A stretch of 64,000 nt of DNA from positions 62,001 to 126,000 of the forward strand of contig JAXDDX010000290.1 of the NCBI GenBank assembly GCA_034670405.1, read 5' to 3'. The first letter of the stretch is position 1. Each line of letters begins with the position of its first letter. Shown piece by piece: positions 6,201-56,476 of the stretch. This DNA is from Hoplostethus atlanticus. Its lineage: Eukaryota; Chordata; Actinopteri; Trachichthyiformes; Trachichthyidae. Made by a program: the position numbers and the translations under genes. The notes under the pieces are model-generated. The model had not been told where the DNA came from. It saw only the letters and a list, made by a program, of their open reading frames with translations, and searched no databases.

Positions 6201-9200
6201 CTGGTTTTAATAATATTATTGTATTAACTGTGTGTGTGTGTGTGTGTGTGTGTAGGTACTTCGAGGCGGTCCAGCTCAAGGAGCAGCGCCGTCAGCAGCG
6301 TCTTCGGGTTCATACCAGCTGCGACGTGGAGAACGGAGAGTTCCTCTGTCCACTCTGCGAGTGTCTAAGCAACACTGTGATACTACTGCTACCACACACA
6401 CACACCCCGTCACACAGGTACTCAAACACACAGTCACACAGGGACACACACACACACACACACTGCCACACAAGTACACACACACAGTCACACAGGGACA
6501 CACTGTCACACAGGGACACACAAACACACACTCATACAGGGACACACACTCACACAGGGACACACAGGGACACACACTCATACAGGGACATACACTCACA
6601 CAGGGACACACACACACACACACTGTCACACAGGGACACACTGTCACACAGGGACACACACTCACACAGGGACACACACACAGGGACACACACACACACA
6701 CACACACTGTCACACAGGGACACACTGTCACACAGGGACACACTCACACAGGGACACACGCTCACACAGGGACACACACACACACACACACTGTCACACA
6801 GGTCCTTTAACACAGTGCATTCATTCAGACTCTAAGCACATAATATAAATCTATGAGGTTTGCTTTTATGGTAATGTTGTTGTTATTGTTGATATCATCT
6901 GAATGTCCTTCCTCCGTCAGTGCTGATCATCCTGGTCTGGAGTCGTGGTTGAAGACGACCAATCAGCAGATAGCAGCTTTACACTCCGCCCACAGGAAAC
7001 ACTCTGACGGTCAGTCCACTTCCTGTTCCTGGTTCAGTCAAGGTCAATCAAATATAACCTGCCAATCACTTAGATTAACAGTATGAAATATCAATCAGAT
7101 GGATGGAAGAACCTTGTTCAGCAAAGACTGTCAATCAAATAGATGAAGGAATAATGTTCAGTATGACCCATCAATTAAATAGGTGGAAGAATATTGATCA
7201 GCAGGTGGTTTACTAGTCATGAGGTGGCAGAACCTCGTTGATAGAGGAACCTTTCCCAACATGCAACATGACAGCCAGTTAAAGGGGAATTCCGGTGTTT
7301 TTAAACCTGGGCTCTATTTGTACAAATTCGTTATTTATACCGTAAAATAGGTACAAAAACTTTTGGAATTGCTCCAGTAGATCGCGAAACGGGCAGCTAT
7401 GGCTGCAACGTAATCCGCAGGGGCAAGTGGGCCGATCAAAGTACGTCCACTAAAAGTGCTTGTTTTTGCCACTGACAGTTATTGGAAGTATCTGACAACA
7501 TTACGGAAAGGATCCCTACAGAGATAGACCTTTTTTTAAAAATACCAGAATTCCCTTTTAAGTAGCCTGTCAATCACTTGAAATGGAGGCTTGAAAATCG
7601 TTGAGGTGGTAAAACTTTCTGCACATTATGCTTTACTCTAGCGAGCTAGCTAGCTAAGAGGCTACAGCTATTTGGATGTGATGGCATAGTTATGCTAGCA
7701 AACTAACTTTACTTGTTTAGCCTACCAGAGCTACAGTTAGCAGCTAACATATTTGAGGCTACTTCAGGAACAATCACTTCCCACCATCCGTTATTTCATA
7801 GACCATTGTCAAGACCTTCAAACACTGACAGATCCGTCAAATAATTTGGTAAATAATTCTCTCCCATTCAAAGACGAGGTTGTGATTGGTTCTCGTGTGG
7901 CGACCCGTCGTGCTCATGGGTGGACAGTCGTTTTGTACCAGCTCCTCCGTCCAGGATCGTCTGAACCAAGACGTTTGTAGTTCAGGTTTTTTTCTCCTGT
8001 GTGTGTGTGTGTGTGTGTGTGTGTAGGTGGAGCAGCAGATGGAGAGGAGTTTCCTCCACCAGAAGGTTTCTTAGTCGACTATTCTCCACCGTGAGTCAGA
8101 ATACTGAAGACTTTTTATTGGGTCTCCTCCTCCTAAACTAGTTGATCACAGATACACAAGCGTTGATGTCATTGCTGATGTCAGTGGTTCTTTGTGTCTC
8201 CTGGTCAGGAACCCGTTCTCCAGCAGCATCAGGGAGATGATCACCACCTTTGGGACTGCGACCTACAAGGTGGGCCTGAAGCTGCACCCCAACGACCAGG
8301 ACCCGAGGGTGTCGGTGATGTCCTGGGCCAGCTGTGCTTACACCATGCAGTCTATAGGTGCACACACACACACACACAGCCTTGCCTGTGCTCTCTAACC
8401 ATCCAGCTCATGTTGTCCTATGTTGAGTCAGATTATCATTCTTCTGTCTCAGTATCTTTACTTCCTGTCCTTTCCATGTGCGTTAACCTGCTCCTTCACA
8501 TAGAGCAGAACCACAGTAACAGCAGCATCTCCAATCCACATCCAGACCAGATCTGGCTGTTCAGATAATATTCAGATAGTTGAACCACATCAGATCCAAG
8601 ACACATTGAAGATCCAATCCTCTAGGAGGTTCATGAGATCCACCAGGAAGCTCATGCAGATGGTTTGAGGGTGTTGTCTTCTCACCTTAAAGGTCAAAGG
8701 TCTAATCTGTGGTTTGTTTATTTGCAGAGCGTCTGTTGGTGGATGAGGAGAAGCCGCTGTTTGGAAGTTTACCCTGCAGACAGGTAACACCACGGTTCTA
8801 TGTAGCACTGGAAAATGGTTCTTATTATTATTATATAAAGATTTTTTAAAGAAAAGAACAAAAGAAGCAGAATACAAATACAAGACATAAAAACAAACTG
8901 ACAAGTATTATGAGATGCAGCAAAAGGGACTATTATGGTAAATTATTGGACGACAACAGAAATAACATTAAAAATACATGGAAAGTATTGAATGACATTA
9001 TTAAAAATGTAACTGGGGAAAAAGGTTACCCAACCTATTTCTTCACAAGGAATAATACAACTATCAATAAAATGGATTTGGTTGCAGATGAATTTAACGA
9101 TTTTTTTAATGTTGGTCCTAATTTAGCTAAGGAGATTGCTGAGCCTAGTAGTAGAGATGACTAGAGATGACGTGGAAAGTAAAACTTCTAATGTAAATAA

Positions 9201-34140: not shown

Positions 34141-37100
34141 ACGAGATGGCGCGGCCGTGTCTAGACGCCGTCGTGGTAGCTCCGCGGAGATTGTGCGTTT
34201 TTTAGTTTGTTTGTTTTTAATATCTTTTTTTGCTCAAACACATCGGCACTAACATCCTACGAACGCAGCACACTTTTGGACATAAACTTTTGCGCAAAAC
34301 AAAGGTTTTTGTCCACTTTTCCCATCGACCCAGCGTGGCCGGCAGAGATAGTACGAGCGAGCCACAACAACAACAGTGGAGACTCACCTACGGGGAGACG
34401 AAGGAGGAAACATCGGGGAAAACGGAGCGGAATTCGGAACAGACTGAGAGTTCAAGCCCACCGTCCACCTCTGCCCAGCATCCTTCTTGCTAACGTCCAG
34501 TCTCTGGATAATAAGTTGGATGATGTTAGGGCGAGGATTAGATTCCAACGGGACATGAGGGATTGTAACGTCTTTTGTCTGACGGAAACATGGCTGACCC
34601 CGCTGGTGCCGGATCGAGCCATATGCCCAACCGAGTCCTTCTCTGTTTTCCGTGCGGATAGAACGGAAGAGTCTGGCAAATCTAAGGGTGGAGGGGTTTG
34701 CTTCATGACCAACAACAAGTGGTGCAACCCCAAGGACATTAAGACTCTTTCTCGTTCCTGCTCGTCGAACCTGGAACATCTGACTATCTCATGCCGTCCA
34801 TTCTACCTTCCCCGGGAGTTCAGCTCGGTCATCACCACAGCCGTCTACATACCACCACAAGCGGACACCGACGTAGCACTATCGGACCTACATGATGTGT
34901 TATGTCGGCATCAGAACAAGCATCCCGACGCGGCTATGGTGGTGGCTGGGGACTTTAATAGGGCGAACCTAAAAAAAGTCATGCCGAACTTTCACCAGCA
35001 CATTACGTGTGCTACCAGAGGGGAAAGAACGTTGGACCACTGCTATACGCCGTTCAAGAGAGGCTACAAGGCTGTCTCTCTCCCTCCGTTCGGCAAATCA
35101 GACCATGCCGCCATTTTCCTGCTACCGGAGTATAAACAAAGGATAGCACGGGAAGCGGTAGTGACGAGGGACGTAAAGCGGTGGTCTGACCAATCAGAGG
35201 CTGAGCTACAGGACGCTCTGCATGACGTCGACTGGGACATGTTCCAATCCAGTTCCAGGGACGTCAGCGAGTTTACGGAAGTAGTAACGAGCTTCATAGC
35301 AACGCTAGTGGATACCATCGTCCCCACGGTGAAAGTTAGGTCCTTTCCTAACCAAAAACCGTGGGTTGATAAATCCATCCGCGACGCTTTGAACGCCCGC
35401 ACTGCTGCCTATAACTCCGGTCTTGTATCCGGCAACATGGACGAGCACAAGGCAGCGTCCTATGGACTGAGAAGGGCGGTGAAGGAGGCCAAGAGGAGGT
35501 ATAGGGACAGAGTGGAGTCGCAGATGGAGCAGCGCGACACCAGACGCCTATGGCAGGGGCTACGGACTATAACGGACTACCAGGGCAGACCCCCCGCAAT
35601 TGTGAGTGCCGACGCATCCCTAGCGGAGGACCTGAACTCATTCTATGCACGGTTTGAGGCTAGCAACAACAGCGCTAGCTCGCCGGCTAACAACATCACC
35701 GTTAGCGCAACCGGAGTGAGTTCTACCGCTGGGGATGAACACACACTCTCTGTGACCGAGCACAGTGTGAGGAGGGCTCTGACGAGGGTGAACACCAGGA
35801 AAGCTGCTGGTCCAGATGGCATATCTGGGCGAGTACTGAAGACCTGTGCTAATCAGCTAGCTCCAGTGTTCACCACTATATTCAACATCTCCCTGGCTGA
35901 GTCTGTGGTCCCCGCCTGCTTCAAGAGATCCACTATTGTCCCTGTGCCCAAGAATGCTTCTCCAGCATGCTTGAATGACTACCGACCGGTGGCCCTCACC
36001 TCGGTGGTCATGAAATGCTTCGAGAGGCTGATAAAGGACTACATCTGCGCCTTCCTCCCTTGCTCCATGGACCCGCTGCAGTTTGCTTATCGTCCCAACA
36101 GATCCACGGATGATGCTGTCTCCCAGATACTGCACACCACACTCTCTCATCTGGACAGCCGGAAGGGGGGCTATGTGAGACTGCTGTTCATTGACTATAG
36201 TTCAGCTTTCAACACCATAGTCCCCACCGGACTGGCCCGGCAAGCTGATTGAGCTGGGACTGAACACCCCCCTGTGTGCCTGGATCCTGGACTTCCTGAC
36301 CGCCAGGCCCCAGGTGGTCAGGGTGGGTAGACACACCTCCAACCCCCTCATCCTGAACACAGGATCCCCCCAGGGTTGCGTCCTCAGCCCCCTACTGTAC
36401 TCCCTGTACACACATGACTGTGTGGCCAGGTTCAGCTCCAACACCATCATTAAGTTTGCGGATGACACAGTGGTGGTGGGCCTGATCTCCAACAACGACG
36501 AGAAGGCCTACCTGGAGGAAGTTGCTGATCTGTCACTCTGGTGCCAGGACAACAGCCTCCTCCTGAATGTCACCAAAACTAAGGAGCTGATTGTGGACTT
36601 TAGGAGGACACAACAACAGAGGACGTACTCACCACTGGGGATTAATGGGAATACTGTGGAGAGGGTGAGCAGGTATAAATACCTGGGAGTCCACATCACT
36701 GAAGATCTGACATGGACAACACACACAGACACTCTGGTGAGAAAGGCGAGGCAGCGCCTTTACCACCTCAGGCAACTGAGGAAATTTAAAGTCTCCCGGA
36801 GGATCCTTCAGTCCTTCTACTCTGGAGCTGTGGAGAGCATCCTGACAGGAAGCATCACTGCCTGGTTTGGCAGCAGCTCCGCTCAGGACAGGAAGGCTCT
36901 GCAGAGAGTAGTGCGTTCGGCTGAGCGCACTATTGGAACTACACTCCCCACCCTGCAGGACTTGTACACCAGGAGGTGCAGAACCAGAGCCTGCAGGATC
37001 ATGAAGGATCCTCACCACCCCAACAACGGACTGTTTCAGCTGCTGCGGTCAGGCAAGCGCCTCCGCAGTCACGCTGCCAAAACAGAGAGACTGAGACGGA

Positions 37101-37477
37101 GTTTCTTTCCTCAGGCCATCAGGACTGTGAACTCTGACCTCACCAGGGCCCCCACCAAGACACACACACTGCCCCTCTTATGCACACACACACACTTAGG
37201 TAAAGACTACACATAATTTATAATTTATATTATATTATACATACAATTTTCTCTTTTTTTACTATATTTTTTTATAAAGTGCTCTTATTGTAAATATTGT
37301 GTTGTTTTTTATATAGAGCTCTTAAAAACTGTGACATTGTAAATATTGTGTTGGTTATTGTAAATAGTGTGAACCTGTTATTTTGCACATTTCTGCTAAG
37401 CATTGCCACTTTGCATTTCACTACACACCTCGTGTGTGTATGTGACAATTAAACTTCTTGAATCTTGAATCTTGAAT
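34141..37477 (+). mobile_element. Nearly intact LINE (L2/CR1-like), one frameshift
   Basis: 3.34 kb, flanked by the duplication CAGAATG (34134-34140 and 37478-37484). The first frame (34207-36252) holds an apurinic-type endonuclease ([29 protein letters not shown]) and the RT fingers ([39 protein letters not shown]). It breaks after [12 protein letters not shown]. The second frame resumes at [15 protein letters not shown] and runs to 37216, with [16 protein letters not shown], catalytic [17 protein letters not shown] and an [20 protein letters not shown] tail. It ends with ACAATTAAACTTCTTGAATC and TTGAATC repeats. The clade is not certain from sequence alone. Confidence 0.92.
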
Positions 37478-37593
37478 CAGAATGCAGCACAGAGAAGGTA
37501 CAACGAAACGCATGGTCGAGCCCGTTCAGTCATTGAACGCACCATCGGGCTCCTGAAATCTCGTTGGAGATGCCGAGACAAGTCTGGTGGCAT
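37478..37593 (+). mobile_element. Harbinger transposase, middle piece
   Basis: The frame AAQRRYNETHGRARSVIERT followed by IGLLKSRWRCRDKSGGI is the conserved C-terminal block of PIF/Harbinger transposases (IER-x-FG-x-LK-x-RWRC). It continues the frame cut at 34140. It is cut again at 37594 and resumes at 39073 with LLYR. Confidence 0.85.
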
Positions 37594-39065
37594 TATGGCA
37601 AGCCGTTTTAACATTTAATCAGTAGGGCTGACTAGTAGCGATTTAGTTTTCACTAGGGGAAATTACATTTCGACGTGTCAAAATGTCATTTTGACTAGTT
37701 AAAATGTTAATTTAATGTTAATCTGTAAAACAATTTTGACGTGTTACAAATATATTTTCACATGTAGTAATTACATTTTGACTAGTCAAAACTGATTTAC
37801 CGATATCTTTAATTTAATTATAGATATCAGTAATTTCTTTTTCACTAGTAAGAATAATGATTACAGATATCTACAATTGAATTTCCACATGTTGAAAAAG
37901 GATTGTGACTAGTGGAAATGTAATTTCCCATTTGAGATATCAACAATTGCATTTCTGATATGTCCGACATATCAACAAACCATTTCGGATATGTGGGCGT
38001 CATATCATGAAAGTACCACAAAGCCATTGGTCGAGTTTTAAATAGGCTATGTCTACCTCATGAATATTCAATAAATGCTAATACAACACAGCTATTTTCC
38101 GTTGGCACCATAAATTGTCTTGGAGTGGAAGATCGATTCGCCACATTAAAAATTCTGTCAAATGCAGAAAATGCTGTGTCCGTATTACTAGACATTCCTT
38201 CGCGCTCAATTTCGTCACCCTAATTACCATATTAATTTCGGATATGTACGTACGTCATTTAAGATATCTACAATGACATTTTGACTAGTGGAAATTCCTT
38301 TTTTGATATCTAAAATGCAATTCTGACTAGTTATGAAAGGAATTATAGATAGCTCAAATATAATTGTTACTAGTACGAATATAATTTTCACTAGTTACAA
38401 TTGTATTTCAGATATCTGAAATGCAATTCTAGATATCTGAAATTACATTCTTACTAGTTACAATTCCAAGCCGACATATCAATAATTTAATTTTGACTAG
38501 TCAGAATTGAATTTTAGATATCTAGAATTCCATTTATGATATCTGTAATGTAAGAACAATTGTAGATATCTACAATGAACATTGCCACTAGTAAGAATTG
38601 AATTGTTGATATCAATAATTAACATTTCCACTAGTAAGAATTTAATTGTTGATATCAATAATTAACATTTTGACTAGTGAGAATTGAGTTGGAGATATCA
38701 TTAATTAGAATTGCAACTAGTCAAAATTACATTATGGATATGTCGACTTGGAATTATAACACGTCAAAATTGAATTATAGATATCTGTAATTGAGTTAGA
38801 ATAGAAGTCAATGGTAAAAGTTGACTAGTTGTAATGAAGTTACAGATATCTACAAGGAACATTTTCACTGGTAAGAAATTAATTGTTGATATCAAGAATT
38901 AACATTTTGACTAGTGAGAAATGAATTGTAGATATCTTTAATTAGAGTTGCAACTAGTCAAAATTACATTATGGATATATTGGCTTGGAATTCTAACTAG
39001 TCAAAAAGCAATTGTTGATATCTACAATTGCTATTACTTATTAAATGTTAAAACAGCTTGCCATA
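37594..39065. mobile_element. Unclassified DNA element built of alternating palindromes, 7-bp TSD
   Basis: 1472 bp. Inverted ends TATGGCAAGCCGTTTTAACA and, at the right, TGTTAAAACAGCTTGCCATA. It is flanked by GTGGCAT at 37587-37593 and 39066-39072. Removing the element and one copy restores the Harbinger frame SGG-I-LLYR. Inside, ACTAGT and GATATC hexamers (about 19 each, with ACATGT/GATATG substitutes) alternate. In 38587-38742 their centres are spaced 21, 22, 21, 22, 21, 22 and 21 bases. A non-repetitive core of about 270 bp lies at about 37965-38235. No ORF. The superfamily is not recognised. Confidence 0.8.
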
Positions 39066-39110
39066 GTGGCATTCTGTTATATCGAGCTCCTTATCCTCTT
39101 TTAAATCCCT
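39066..39110 (+). mobile_element. Harbinger transposase, third piece
   Basis: After the second copy of GTGGCAT the frame reads ILLYRAPYPLL, matching the SGGTLLYRPEKV-type continuation of Harbinger transposases for a few residues, then diverges. Short, but exactly in the position and phase expected. Confidence 0.6.
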
Positions 39111-48505: not shown

Positions 48506-48655
48506 TTTAATCAGACATCACTAATCTCATACAGAGCTGTTCTCTGTACAGTGGCAGCTGGTGCCATTCTGGTGGTGCAGCACCAACCCCCACCCCTTCT
48601 GCATTGTGAAGCTAATGGAGCAATTTCTAACCACCCATCCTCGTGTTTGGGGCTA
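46153..48655. other. Gene-free stretch
   Basis: Contains a 15-bp repeat GGTTGCCAGGTTGAC at 46612-46725, CA/GT tracts at about 46800-46980 and 48472-48502, and a C-run at about 47818-47831. No supported exon. Confidence 0.5.
46612..46725 (+). repeat. GGTTGCCAGGTTGAC short minisatellite
   Basis: About seven 15-bp units with substitutions. Confidence 0.85.
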
Positions 48656-48659
48656 GTAT

Positions 48660-51060
48660 CAGTGTGTTAGGTACTAGTTACAGTGTGTTTGAGGCTAGTG
48701 TTTGGAGCTAGTTACAGTGTGTTTGAGGCTAGTGTTTGGAGCTAGTTACAGTGTGTTTGAGGCTATTGTTTGTGGCTAGTTACAGTGTGTTTGAGGCTAG
48801 TGTTTGGAGCTAGTTCCAGTGTGTTTGTGGCTAGTTACATTATGTTTGGGACTAGTTACAGTGTGTTTGAGGCTAGTGTTTGAGGCTAGTTACAGTGTGT
48901 TTGAGGCTAGTGTTTGGAGCTAGTTCCAGTGTGCTTGTGGCTAGTTACATTATGTTTGGGACTAGTTACAGTGTGTTTGAGGCTAGTGTTTGAGGCTAGT
49001 TACAGTGTGTTTGGAGCTAGTGTTTGTGACTAGTTACAGTGTGTTTGAGGCTAGTGTTTGTGACTAGTTACAGTGTGTTTGAGGCTAGTTACAGTGTGTT
49101 TGAGGCTAGTGTTTGTGACTAGTTCCAGTGCGTTTGAGGCTAGTGTTTGGGACGAGTTCCAATGTATTTGAGGCTAGTGTTTGGGACTAGTTCTAGTGTG
49201 TTTGAGGCTTGTGTTTGGGGCTAGTTACAGTATGTTTGGGGCTAGTTACAGTGTGTCTGAGGCTAGTGTTTGGGACTAGTTCCAGTGTGTTTGAGGCTTG
49301 TGTTTGGGGCTAGTTACAGTATGTTTGGGGCTAGTTACAGTGTGTTTGAGGTTAGTGTTTGAGGCTAGTTACAATGTGTTTGGGGCTAGTTCCAGTGTGT
49401 TTGAGGCTAGTGTTTGTGACTAGTTACAGTGTGTTTGAGGCTAGTGTTTGGGACTAGTTCCAATGTATTTGAGGCTAGTGTTTGTGACTAGCTCCAGTGT
49501 GTTTGAGGCTAGTGTTTGTGACTAGTTCCAGTGCGTTTGAGGCTAGTGTTTGGGACTAGTTCCAGTGTGTTTGAGGCTAGTTACATTGTGTTTGGGACTA
49601 GTTACAGTGTGTTTGAGGCTAATTCCAGTGTGTTTGAGGCTAGTGTTTGAGGCTAGTTACAGTGTGTTTGGAGCTAGTGTTTGCGACTAGTTACAGTGTG
49701 TTTGAGGCTAGTTACAGTGTGTTTGGAGCTAGTGTTTGCGACTAGTTACAGTGTGTTTGAGGCTAGTTACAGTGTGTTTGAGGCTAGTGTTTGGAGCTAG
49801 TTACAGTGTGTTTGAGGCTATTGTTTGTGGCTAGTTACAGTGTGTTTGAGGCTAGTGTTTGGAGCTAGTTACAGTGTGTGTATTTGAGGCTATTGTTTGT
49901 GGCTAGTTAGTGTGTTTGAGGCTAGTGTTTGGGACAAGTTACAGTGTGTTTGAGGCTAGTGTTTGGAGATAGTTCCAGTGTGTTTGTGGCTAGTTACATT
50001 GTGTTTGGGACTAGTTACAGTGTGTTTGAGGCTAATTCCAGTGTGTTTGAGGCTAGTGTTTGAGGCTAGTTACAGTGTGTTTGGAGCTAGTGTTTGCAAC
50101 TAGTTACAGTGTGTTTGAGGCTAGTGTTTGTGACTAGTTCCAGTGCGTTTGAGGCTAGTGTTTGGGACGAGTTCCAATGTATTTGAGGCTAGTGTTTGGG
50201 ACTAGTTCCAGTGTGTTTGAGGCTTGTGTTTGGGGCTAGTTACAGTTTGTTTGGGGCTAGTTACAGTGTGTCTGAGGCTAGTGTTTGGGACTAGTTCCAG
50301 TGTGTTTGAGGCTTGTGTTTGGGGCTAGTTACAGTATGTTTGGAGCTAGTTACAGTGTGTTTGAGGTTAGTGTTTGGGGCTAGTTACAGTGTGTTTGAGG
50401 CTAGTGTTTGAGGCTAGTTCCAGTGTGTTTGAGGCTAGTGTTTGTGACTAGTTACAGTGTGTTTGAGGCTAGTGTTTGGAGCTAGTTCCAGTGCGTTTGA
50501 GGCTAGTGTTTGGGACTAATTCCAGTGTGTTTGAGGCTAGTGTTTGAGGCTAGTTACAGTGTGTTTGGAGCTAGTGTTTGTGACTAGTTACAGTGTATTT
50601 GAGGCTAGTGTTTGGGACTAGTTCCAATGTATTTGAGGCTAGTGTTTGGGACTAGCTCCAGTGTGTTTGAGGCTAGTGTTTGGGACTAGTTCCAGTGTGT
50701 TTGAGGCTAGTGTTTGGTTCTAGTTACAGTGTGTTTGGGGCTAGTTACAGTGTGTTTGAGGCTTGTGTTTGGGGCTAGTTACAGTGTGTTTGGGGCTAGT
50801 TCCAATGTATTTGAGGCTAGTATTTGGGACTAGTTCCAATGTATTTGAGGCTAGTATTTGGGCCTAGTTCCAGTGTGTTTGAGGCTAGTGTTTGGGGCTA
50901 GTTACAGTATGTTTGAGGCTAGTGTTTGAGGCTAGTTACAGTGTGTTTGGGGCTAGCTCCAGTGTGTTTAAGGCTATTTACAGTGTGTTTGGGGCTAGCT
51001 CCAGTGTGTTTAAGGCTAGTTACAGTGTGTTTGAGGCTAGTTACAGTGCGTTTGGCACTG
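48660..51060 (+). repeat. GAGGCTAGTGTTTGGGACTA minisatellite, 2.4 kb
   Basis: Degenerate units of two alternating kinds, GTGTTTGAGGCTAGT and TTTGGGACTAGTTCCA/TTACA. Unit length varies from about 17 to 35 bp, so the register drifts. It is one of the two longest arrays in the window. Short open frames on it are artefacts. Confidence 0.95.
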
Positions 51061-55632: not shown

Positions 55633-56476
55633 CCACACACACTGACACTCTGGTGAGAAAGGCGAGGCAGCGCCTTTACCACCTCAGGCAGCTGAGGAAA
55701 TTCAAAGTCTCCCGGAGGATCCTTCAGTCCTTCTACTCTGGAGCTGTGGAGAGCATCCTGACAGGAAGCATCACTGCCTGGTTTGGCAGCAGCTCCGCTC
55801 AGGACAGGAAGGCTCTGCAGAGAGTAGTGCGTTCGGCCACTTTGCATTTCACTACACACCTCGTGTGTGTATGTGACAATTAAACTCCTTGAATCTTGAA
55901 TCTTGAATCTTGAATCTGAGCGCACTATTGGAACTACACTCCCCACCCTGCAGGACTTGTACACCAGGAGGTGCAGAACCAGAGCCTGCAGGATCATGAA
56001 GGATCCTCACCACCCCAACAACGGACTGTTTCAGCTGCTGCGGTCAGGCAAGCGCCTCCGTAGTCACGCTGCCAAAACAGAGAGACTGAGACGGAGTTTC
56101 TTTCCTCAGGCCATCAGGACTGTGAACTCTGACCTCACCAGGGCCCCCACCAAGACACACACACTGCCCCTCTTATGCACACACACACTTAGGTAAAGAC
56201 TACACATAATTTATAGTATATTACATTCATACAATTTCCCTTACTACTATATTTTCATTTCCAAAGTGCTCTTACTGTATATATTGTGTTGTTTTTTTTA
56301 TATAAGAGCTCTTACTGTAATTACTGTAATACTGTAAATATTGTGTTGTTTTTTTATTGTAAATACTGTGTACTGTTGCCCTTTTGCACATTCCCGTTGA
56401 GCATTGCCACTTTTCATTTCACTACACACCCCGTGTGTGTATGTGACAAATAAAGTTCTTGAATCTTGAATCTTGA
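55633..56476 (+). mobile_element. Truncated copy of the 34141-37477 LINE family inside the L2
   Basis: Begins at TGACACTCTGGTGAGAAAGG (same as about 36727 in the long copy) and keeps [20 protein letters not shown] and the following C-terminal frame nearly identically to the 3' end with TTGAATC repeats. The frame is interrupted by a 79-bp piece at 55838-55916. Confidence 0.9.
55838..55916 (+). mobile_element. 79-bp 3'-tail insertion of the same LINE family
   Basis: CACTTTGCATTTCACTACAC through AATTAAACTCCTTGAATC with four TTGAATC-type repeats is the terminal 3'UTR of this LINE. It sits between GTGCGTTCGGC and TGAGCGCAC, which are contiguous in the long copy (about 36911-36930). No target duplication is visible. 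Confidence 0.88.

Follow-up and report, generated by a model that had tools for sequence, protein, structure and literature searches.

A non-coding 1,472-bp insertion in the genome of Hoplostethus atlanticus is, with a probability that we put at about 0.6, a non-autonomous, internally deleted cut-and-paste transposon related to IS3EU whose subterminal palindrome arrays bind its transposase or a host protein. It occupies positions 37594-39065 of the window, the 64,000-nucleotide stretch G000:C290:62001-126000 analyzed here, and the genome searched for relatives comprises 633 Mb. The element has inverted ends and 7-bp target duplications, is present in many copies, and in longer relatives its left end and array are linked to a transposase gene. 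The rva_4 enzyme of these relatives probably moves it, and the arrays beside each end are putative subterminal binding sites.

A first-pass annotation had read the stretch as a transposon, which is borne out by the restored empty site, the copies elsewhere in the genome, and their 7-bp duplications. The inverted ends it named, TATGGCAAGC and GCTTGCCATA, and the duplication GTGGCAT were found again as described; the window copy begins and ends TATGGC..GCCATA. Joining the flanks restores an open HARBI1-like frame; the element thus interrupts a HARBI1-like transposase pseudogene and is an insertion. An eighth duplicated base is possible in the window copy only with unequal ends, and nine other copies have exactly 7 bp, not 8. 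A non-repetitive core is present, as claimed, but measures ~235 bp rather than ~270 bp. The features are as follows.

37469..37593, plus strand: left flank, HARBI1-like DDE_Tnp_4 pseudogene fragment (PF13359, E 1.3e-6), interrupted by the insertion and resuming after 39072
37587..37593, plus strand: left target-site duplication GTGGCAT
37594..37624, plus strand: left terminal inverted repeat (TIR), 31 bp, 29/31 matching the right end
37631..38006, unstranded: left subterminal lattice of ACTAGT/ACNNGT and GATATC nodes, many 21/22 bp apart, imperfect nearer the core (GATATG, CATATC)
38007..38240, plus strand: core, ~235 bp
38038..38118 (G000:C290:100038-100118), plus strand: remnant of residues 2-28 of the L068 ORF (78% identity, E 3.7e-4)
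38241..39022, unstranded: right subterminal lattice, GATATC and ACTAGT mostly alternating
39035..39065, minus strand: right TIR
39066..39072, plus strand: right target-site duplication GTGGCAT

ORFs of the core gave no Pfam match above the cut-off (best Peptidase_S66, E 0.14), and Rfam at gathering scores returned none. A LINE with endonuclease-like and reverse transcriptase ORFs lies at 34180-37478, ends in TCTTGAA repeats, and directly adjoins the HARBI1-like fragment; parts of its tail occur again at 55836-55909 and 56281-56476.

The search for further copies placed the element in a multicopy family within its own genome. Allowing up to 3 mismatches, we found 103 TIR matches, whereas the reversed control gave 0; among the 100 matches listed, 29 were exact. 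Scoring 40 places of 86 candidates yielded 172 matching stretches, and four other places match the element over positions 1-1472 at 82-90% identity. In an alignment of 10 copies the TIRs pair at 32/32 positions in L040 and L042 and 31/32 in L041 and L047, and are shorter or broken in L045, L071 and L102. Five loci fetched twice (L053, L056-L059) were dropped. Duplication length was counted only at loci with two TIR-like ends 60-7000 bp apart, giving 19 rows that represent 17 distinct places, with L089 and L091 repeating L078 and L065. An exact 7-bp duplication flanks 10 of the 17, with no exact match at 5, 6, 8 or 9 bp, and a duplication of exactly 6 bp was found at none. Partial duplications occur at L062 (6/7) and L054 (5/7), the ends of L052 sit in a CA repeat that is uninformative for length, and no duplication was found at L049, L074, L076 or L101. 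L102 has both TIRs 6,078 bp apart, a 7-bp duplication, a short right array, and an interior filled with what appear to be other repeats.

A further TIR-like end in inverted orientation (GGCGTGCCATA or a variant, then TACGTACGTC or a near match) lies between the core and the right array in several copies, namely L042 (reverse strand, near oriented position 837), L044, L046, L052, L056/L079 and L074. These copies look like a complete short element joined to an additional array, and the extra end was not seen in the window copy. Stretches with the lattice pattern in viral (5) and prokaryote (26) collections each contain 1-2 ACTAGT and 1-3 GATATC in ~1.4 kb and were read as chance, not copies; two further scans of viral collections gave no matches. 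The element's sequence strings had no match in the paper text searched, nor was the element found in the literature on palindromic transposons in fish, as judged from titles and the beginnings of abstracts.

Longer relatives in this genome join the left end and array of the element to an integrase-type transposase gene of the rva_4 type. Searching with an ORF that adjoins the core in L068 and L063 turned up C120, C45 and others. C120 contains, in order, the left TIR, array, core, N-terminal region, and rva_4 core (PF24764, E 2.2e-79); a LINE is inserted in its array, and its N-terminal frame is broken, with two overlapping matches. In C120 the counterpart of the window core immediately precedes the coding region for the transposase N-terminal part, and the L068 ORF that left its remnant in the window runs into that region. 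Nine matches of the L068 ORF to solved structures (E 0.003 to 0.8) are all to spike heptad-repeat chains and were read as coiled-coil look-alikes. The alignment of C358 to the element starts at base 1 of the left end and extends across the array (82% identity), with no intact TIR recovered there by pattern. C358 also has the N-terminal ORF and 50 C-terminal residues of the C120 transposase protein, 46/50 identical (92%). Two further stretches are common to C120 and C358, one of 0.8 kb (88% identity) and one of 0.9 kb (91%). Fragments of rva_4 lie 9 kb (C45) and 6 kb (C126) downstream of left TIRs on the same strand. No copy was seen to combine the two TIRs, the two arrays and the transposase; the long copies were followed short of the right end.

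In the 0.8-kb stretch shared with C120, an antisense ORF of C358 matches the HECT domain (PF00632, E 4.3e-7). The positions are as follows.

L063 2657-3142, minus strand: HECT-domain ORF antisense to the transposase (profile match)
C120 oriented 6367-6669, minus strand: ORF similar to the HECT ORF (DNA comparison)

The HECT gene appears to travel with the element, and the linkage points to a ubiquitin ligase as part of the family's gene content. No paper pairing HECT with IS3EU/GingerRoot or with an integrase-type DNA transposon was found by title and abstract opening.

The lattice does not accompany every rva_4 gene. C144, the second-best rva_4 match, has no nodes in the 2 kb upstream, where the end may lie further out, and C337, with an rva_4 core 64% identical, has none in 8.5 kb at a stricter cut; a lattice as a general rva_4 feature is thus unsupported. 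By eye, the region upstream of the C144 rva_4 gene (L106, G000:C144:1141000-1142980) has repeated CACATATG/ATGTATAC-like motifs of its own.

The element had been called unclassified, but it can be placed near IS3EU. Published descriptions give IS3EU termini as TA..TA (PMC10045372), fungal IS3EU ends as TAYGG..CCRTA (PMC12730594), target duplications as usually 6 bp, and fungal IS3EU TIRs as >30 bp (PMC10045372, PMC12730594). The ends of the element, TATGG..CCATA, fit the fungal consensus, its TIRs (32 bp in L040 and L042, 31 bp in the window) likewise exceed 30 bp, and its linked transposase is of the integrase type, rva_4 here, as in IS3EU/GingerRoot. An accessory gene opposite to the transposase recalls the fungal TET+ families of the same descriptions, which have an alpha-kinase (PMC10045372, PMC12730594) where this element has the HECT ORF. 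Unlike IS3EU/GingerRoot as these descriptions present them, it has 7-bp rather than 6-bp duplications, a subterminal lattice, and HECT. Judged against these published descriptions, it would best be termed IS3EU-like with 7-bp duplications; we do not call it a member because IS3EU usually duplicates 6 bp, so that one defining feature fails.

Three families with duplications of similar length were ruled out. Dada, which lacks TIRs and inserts into multicopy small RNA genes with 6-7 bp duplications (PMC3706591), fits in duplication length alone and is excluded by the element's TIRs and its HARBI1-like pseudogene target. Galileo and the P superfamily are described as having 7-bp duplications, repeats near the ends, many defective copies, and a THAP-type transposase (PMC4168063). 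The element shares the first three properties; it is linked to rva_4 and not to THAP (0 THAP matches in the 5 ORFs scanned), which rules this group out, and the passages of PMC4168063 consulted describe no comparable lattice in Galileo. The hAT7 group combines a hAT transposase with 7-bp duplications (PMC12730594) and is ruled out by the linked rva_4 integrase.

The palindromes themselves are confirmed in number and in spacing. Exactly 19 ACTAGT and 19 GATATC occur in 37594-39065, where 500 dinucleotide shuffles gave means of 0.39 and 0.63 and maxima of 3 and 4, respectively. Neighboring exact nodes are separated by 37 gaps, of which 18 measure 21 bp and 7 measure 22 bp (25/37 together). The series 21, 22, 21, 22, 21, 22, 21 reported for 38587-38742 holds, its last node being GATATG, as does 21, 21, 22, 21, 21 at 37802-37913, where one node is ACATGT. 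Aligned by hexamer with at most 1 mismatch, and with off-lattice node-like matches at 37968 and 38001 dropped, the element carries ~50 palindromes (21 ACTAGT-type and 26 GATATC-type nodes). By eye, the ACTAGT class nearer the left end varies as AC-NN-GT (ACATGT, ACGTGT). The AATT-like steps noted between nodes are present, but in block form, with a unit of hexamer-N3-AAT followed by N3 or N4 and ATT-N3. Each node thus sits in ATT-N3-hexamer-N3-AAT, with AAT-N3-ATT linkers giving 21 bp and AAT-N4-ATT linkers 22 bp; these ATT/AAT positions are strong preferences, not invariant.

The claim that the palindromes share a helix face is true over short runs but fails over long ones. Block by block, the period that fits best ranges from 21.15 to 21.55 bp, so that nodes drift off one face; at 10.5 bp, one block has a phase coherence of 0.90 and the other three have 0.49 to 0.75.

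Tandem duplication accounts for part of this regularity. TRF reports a 43-bp array at 38558-38728 (4.0 copies), and the right lattice grew partly by duplication of 43-bp and ~237-bp blocks. These duplications, in a window rich in minisatellites, would also be expected if the lattice were a satellite without a role that had grown passively inside the transposon from a 21-bp or 43-bp unit, through slippage and unequal exchange. We consider that explanation unlikely: passive expansion predicts uniform divergence along the unit, whereas among window units divergence is 3.2% for ACTAGT and 8.2% for GATATC against 60 and 64% in the N3 arms, with 21% in the ATT/AAT blocks. The low hexamer values are helped by the node definition of at most 1 mismatch. 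The window outside the element contains 4 GATATC and 47 ACTAGT, 25 of the latter in one minisatellite at 48643-51054, which was rejected as a relative of the lattice. That minisatellite mixes 13-bp and 21-bp units (TRF periods 13, 21, 34, 68, 89 and 102).

Variation among copies likewise speaks against a passive satellite, since inherited variants avoid the hexamers. We take variants private to one copy to be mostly decay after insertion, and those in at least two copies to be mostly inherited from source elements. Nodes were defined on L042, which was then left out, because window-defined nodes under-counted hexamer change in a first count of 35 copies. Matches below 82% identity and overlapping segments were dropped, as were CpG sites and any site covered by fewer than 6 copies. 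Among the 30 copies, window included, the ratio of shared to private variants is 8:75 for hexamers, compared with 65:198 for arms plus linkers (38:114 and 27:84; Fisher P=0.003). Two other node sets gave P=0.002 and 0.010, with two of the three definitions yielding identical node numbers and results. Shared variants per site are 0.028 in hexamers, 0.140 in arms, 0.102 in linkers, 0.064 in ATT/AAT blocks, and 0.037 in the core (lower depth); private variants per base are 0.018, 0.029, 0.022, 0.012, and 0.022 in the same order. The hexamers thus resist inherited change. The ATT/AAT blocks show no such drop (18:50), as a passive satellite would allow, and a fairly low ratio is also seen in the core outside the lattice (9:46, or 15:59 in the repeat count, at lower depth), so that the hexamers stand out cleanly only when compared inside the arrays. 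Part of this result could also arise through gene conversion between units.

A passive satellite is also at odds with the presence of the lattice in a diverged subfamily. An L098 array 67% identical to the reference, picked by eye like the other diverged regions, has 20 nodes (16 exact), where shuffles average 5.9 and reach at most 13, and 15 of its 19 gaps measure 21 or 22 bp. The 21/22-bp spacing is therefore clear in one diverged array and weak in smaller ones: a second L098 stretch has 9 nodes (shuffle maximum 7) with 3/8 such gaps, L095 has 9 (maximum 9) with 4/8, and the L102 right end has 4 (maximum 6) with 3/3. The suggestion that the palindromes form a binding-site array gains indirect support from the hexamer constraint and this subfamily; the binder is putative.

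Such sites might instead serve host DNA-binding or nucleosome-ordering proteins, aiding expression or sheltering the element from silencing. We regard this as possible but with the odds against it. The AT blocks centered ~10.5 bp from each node by the geometry of the unit are compatible with it, and two distinct alternating palindromes would fit two proteins. Lattice pairs have 149 exact matches in the genome (reversed control 0), and 88 of 100 listed pairs lie within 2.5 kb of one of the 100 listed TIRs, with 12 further away; this proximity to the family's ends fits a transposon-specific reader better than a host protein.

The palindromes had also been proposed to drive cruciform folding. Kept for cruciform extrusion or long double-stranded RNA, they might affect transposition, replication, or small-RNA silencing. 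Compared with 20 shuffles, the right array does fold much better (z -14 as DNA, -21 as RNA), as is expected of any palindrome array, and inverted repeats of 79-85 nt at 80-84% are present. Yet the N3 arms in the window pair no more than shuffled arms (ACTAGT 19/63, shuffled mean 25.0; GATATC 29/78, mean 28.1), for which reason cruciform selection was rejected as the main explanation. In diverged arrays the ACTAGT arms again show no excess pairing (28/57), and the GATATC arms pair slightly above shuffled (35/69, mean 27.6, P=0.034, a weak signal). We judge the folding explanation quite improbable. Arms that are variable and not complementary beyond shuffles point to gapped palindromic protein sites rather than hairpins.

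A few transposons are known to carry subterminal binding arrays. En/Spm and Ac/Ds have arrays of short protein-binding motifs beside both ends that are kept in deletion derivatives, as here, and their motifs are irregularly spaced. In the present family the lattice spacing is 21-22 bp, with two palindromes in mostly alternating order, and a near-regular lattice of this kind is unusual. On the preferred reading of transposon-borne binding sites, each gapped palindrome, ATT-N3-ACTAGT or GATATC-N3-AAT, would be read by a protein dimer, most likely the N-terminal part of the transposase or else a host chromatin protein. With sites about two helical turns apart, many copies could load side by side and bring the transposon ends together; given the phase drift (period up to 21.55 bp), strict same-face loading would fail over long runs. 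Deletion derivatives would lose the genes and retain the ends and arrays, which they require to be mobilized in trans.

A bolder and rather unlikely extension is that the family represents an IS3EU-like lineage with 7-bp duplications, a HECT gene, and lattice ends that nucleate a protein filament, the two palindromes having two readers. If so, one dimer would sit at every two helical turns, with the palindromes read by different subunits or proteins. ACTAGT and GATATC are SpeI and EcoRV sites, and their density in the arrays makes copies easy to map. The lattice offers a clean test system for how site spacing and helical phase govern the assembly of transposon ends.
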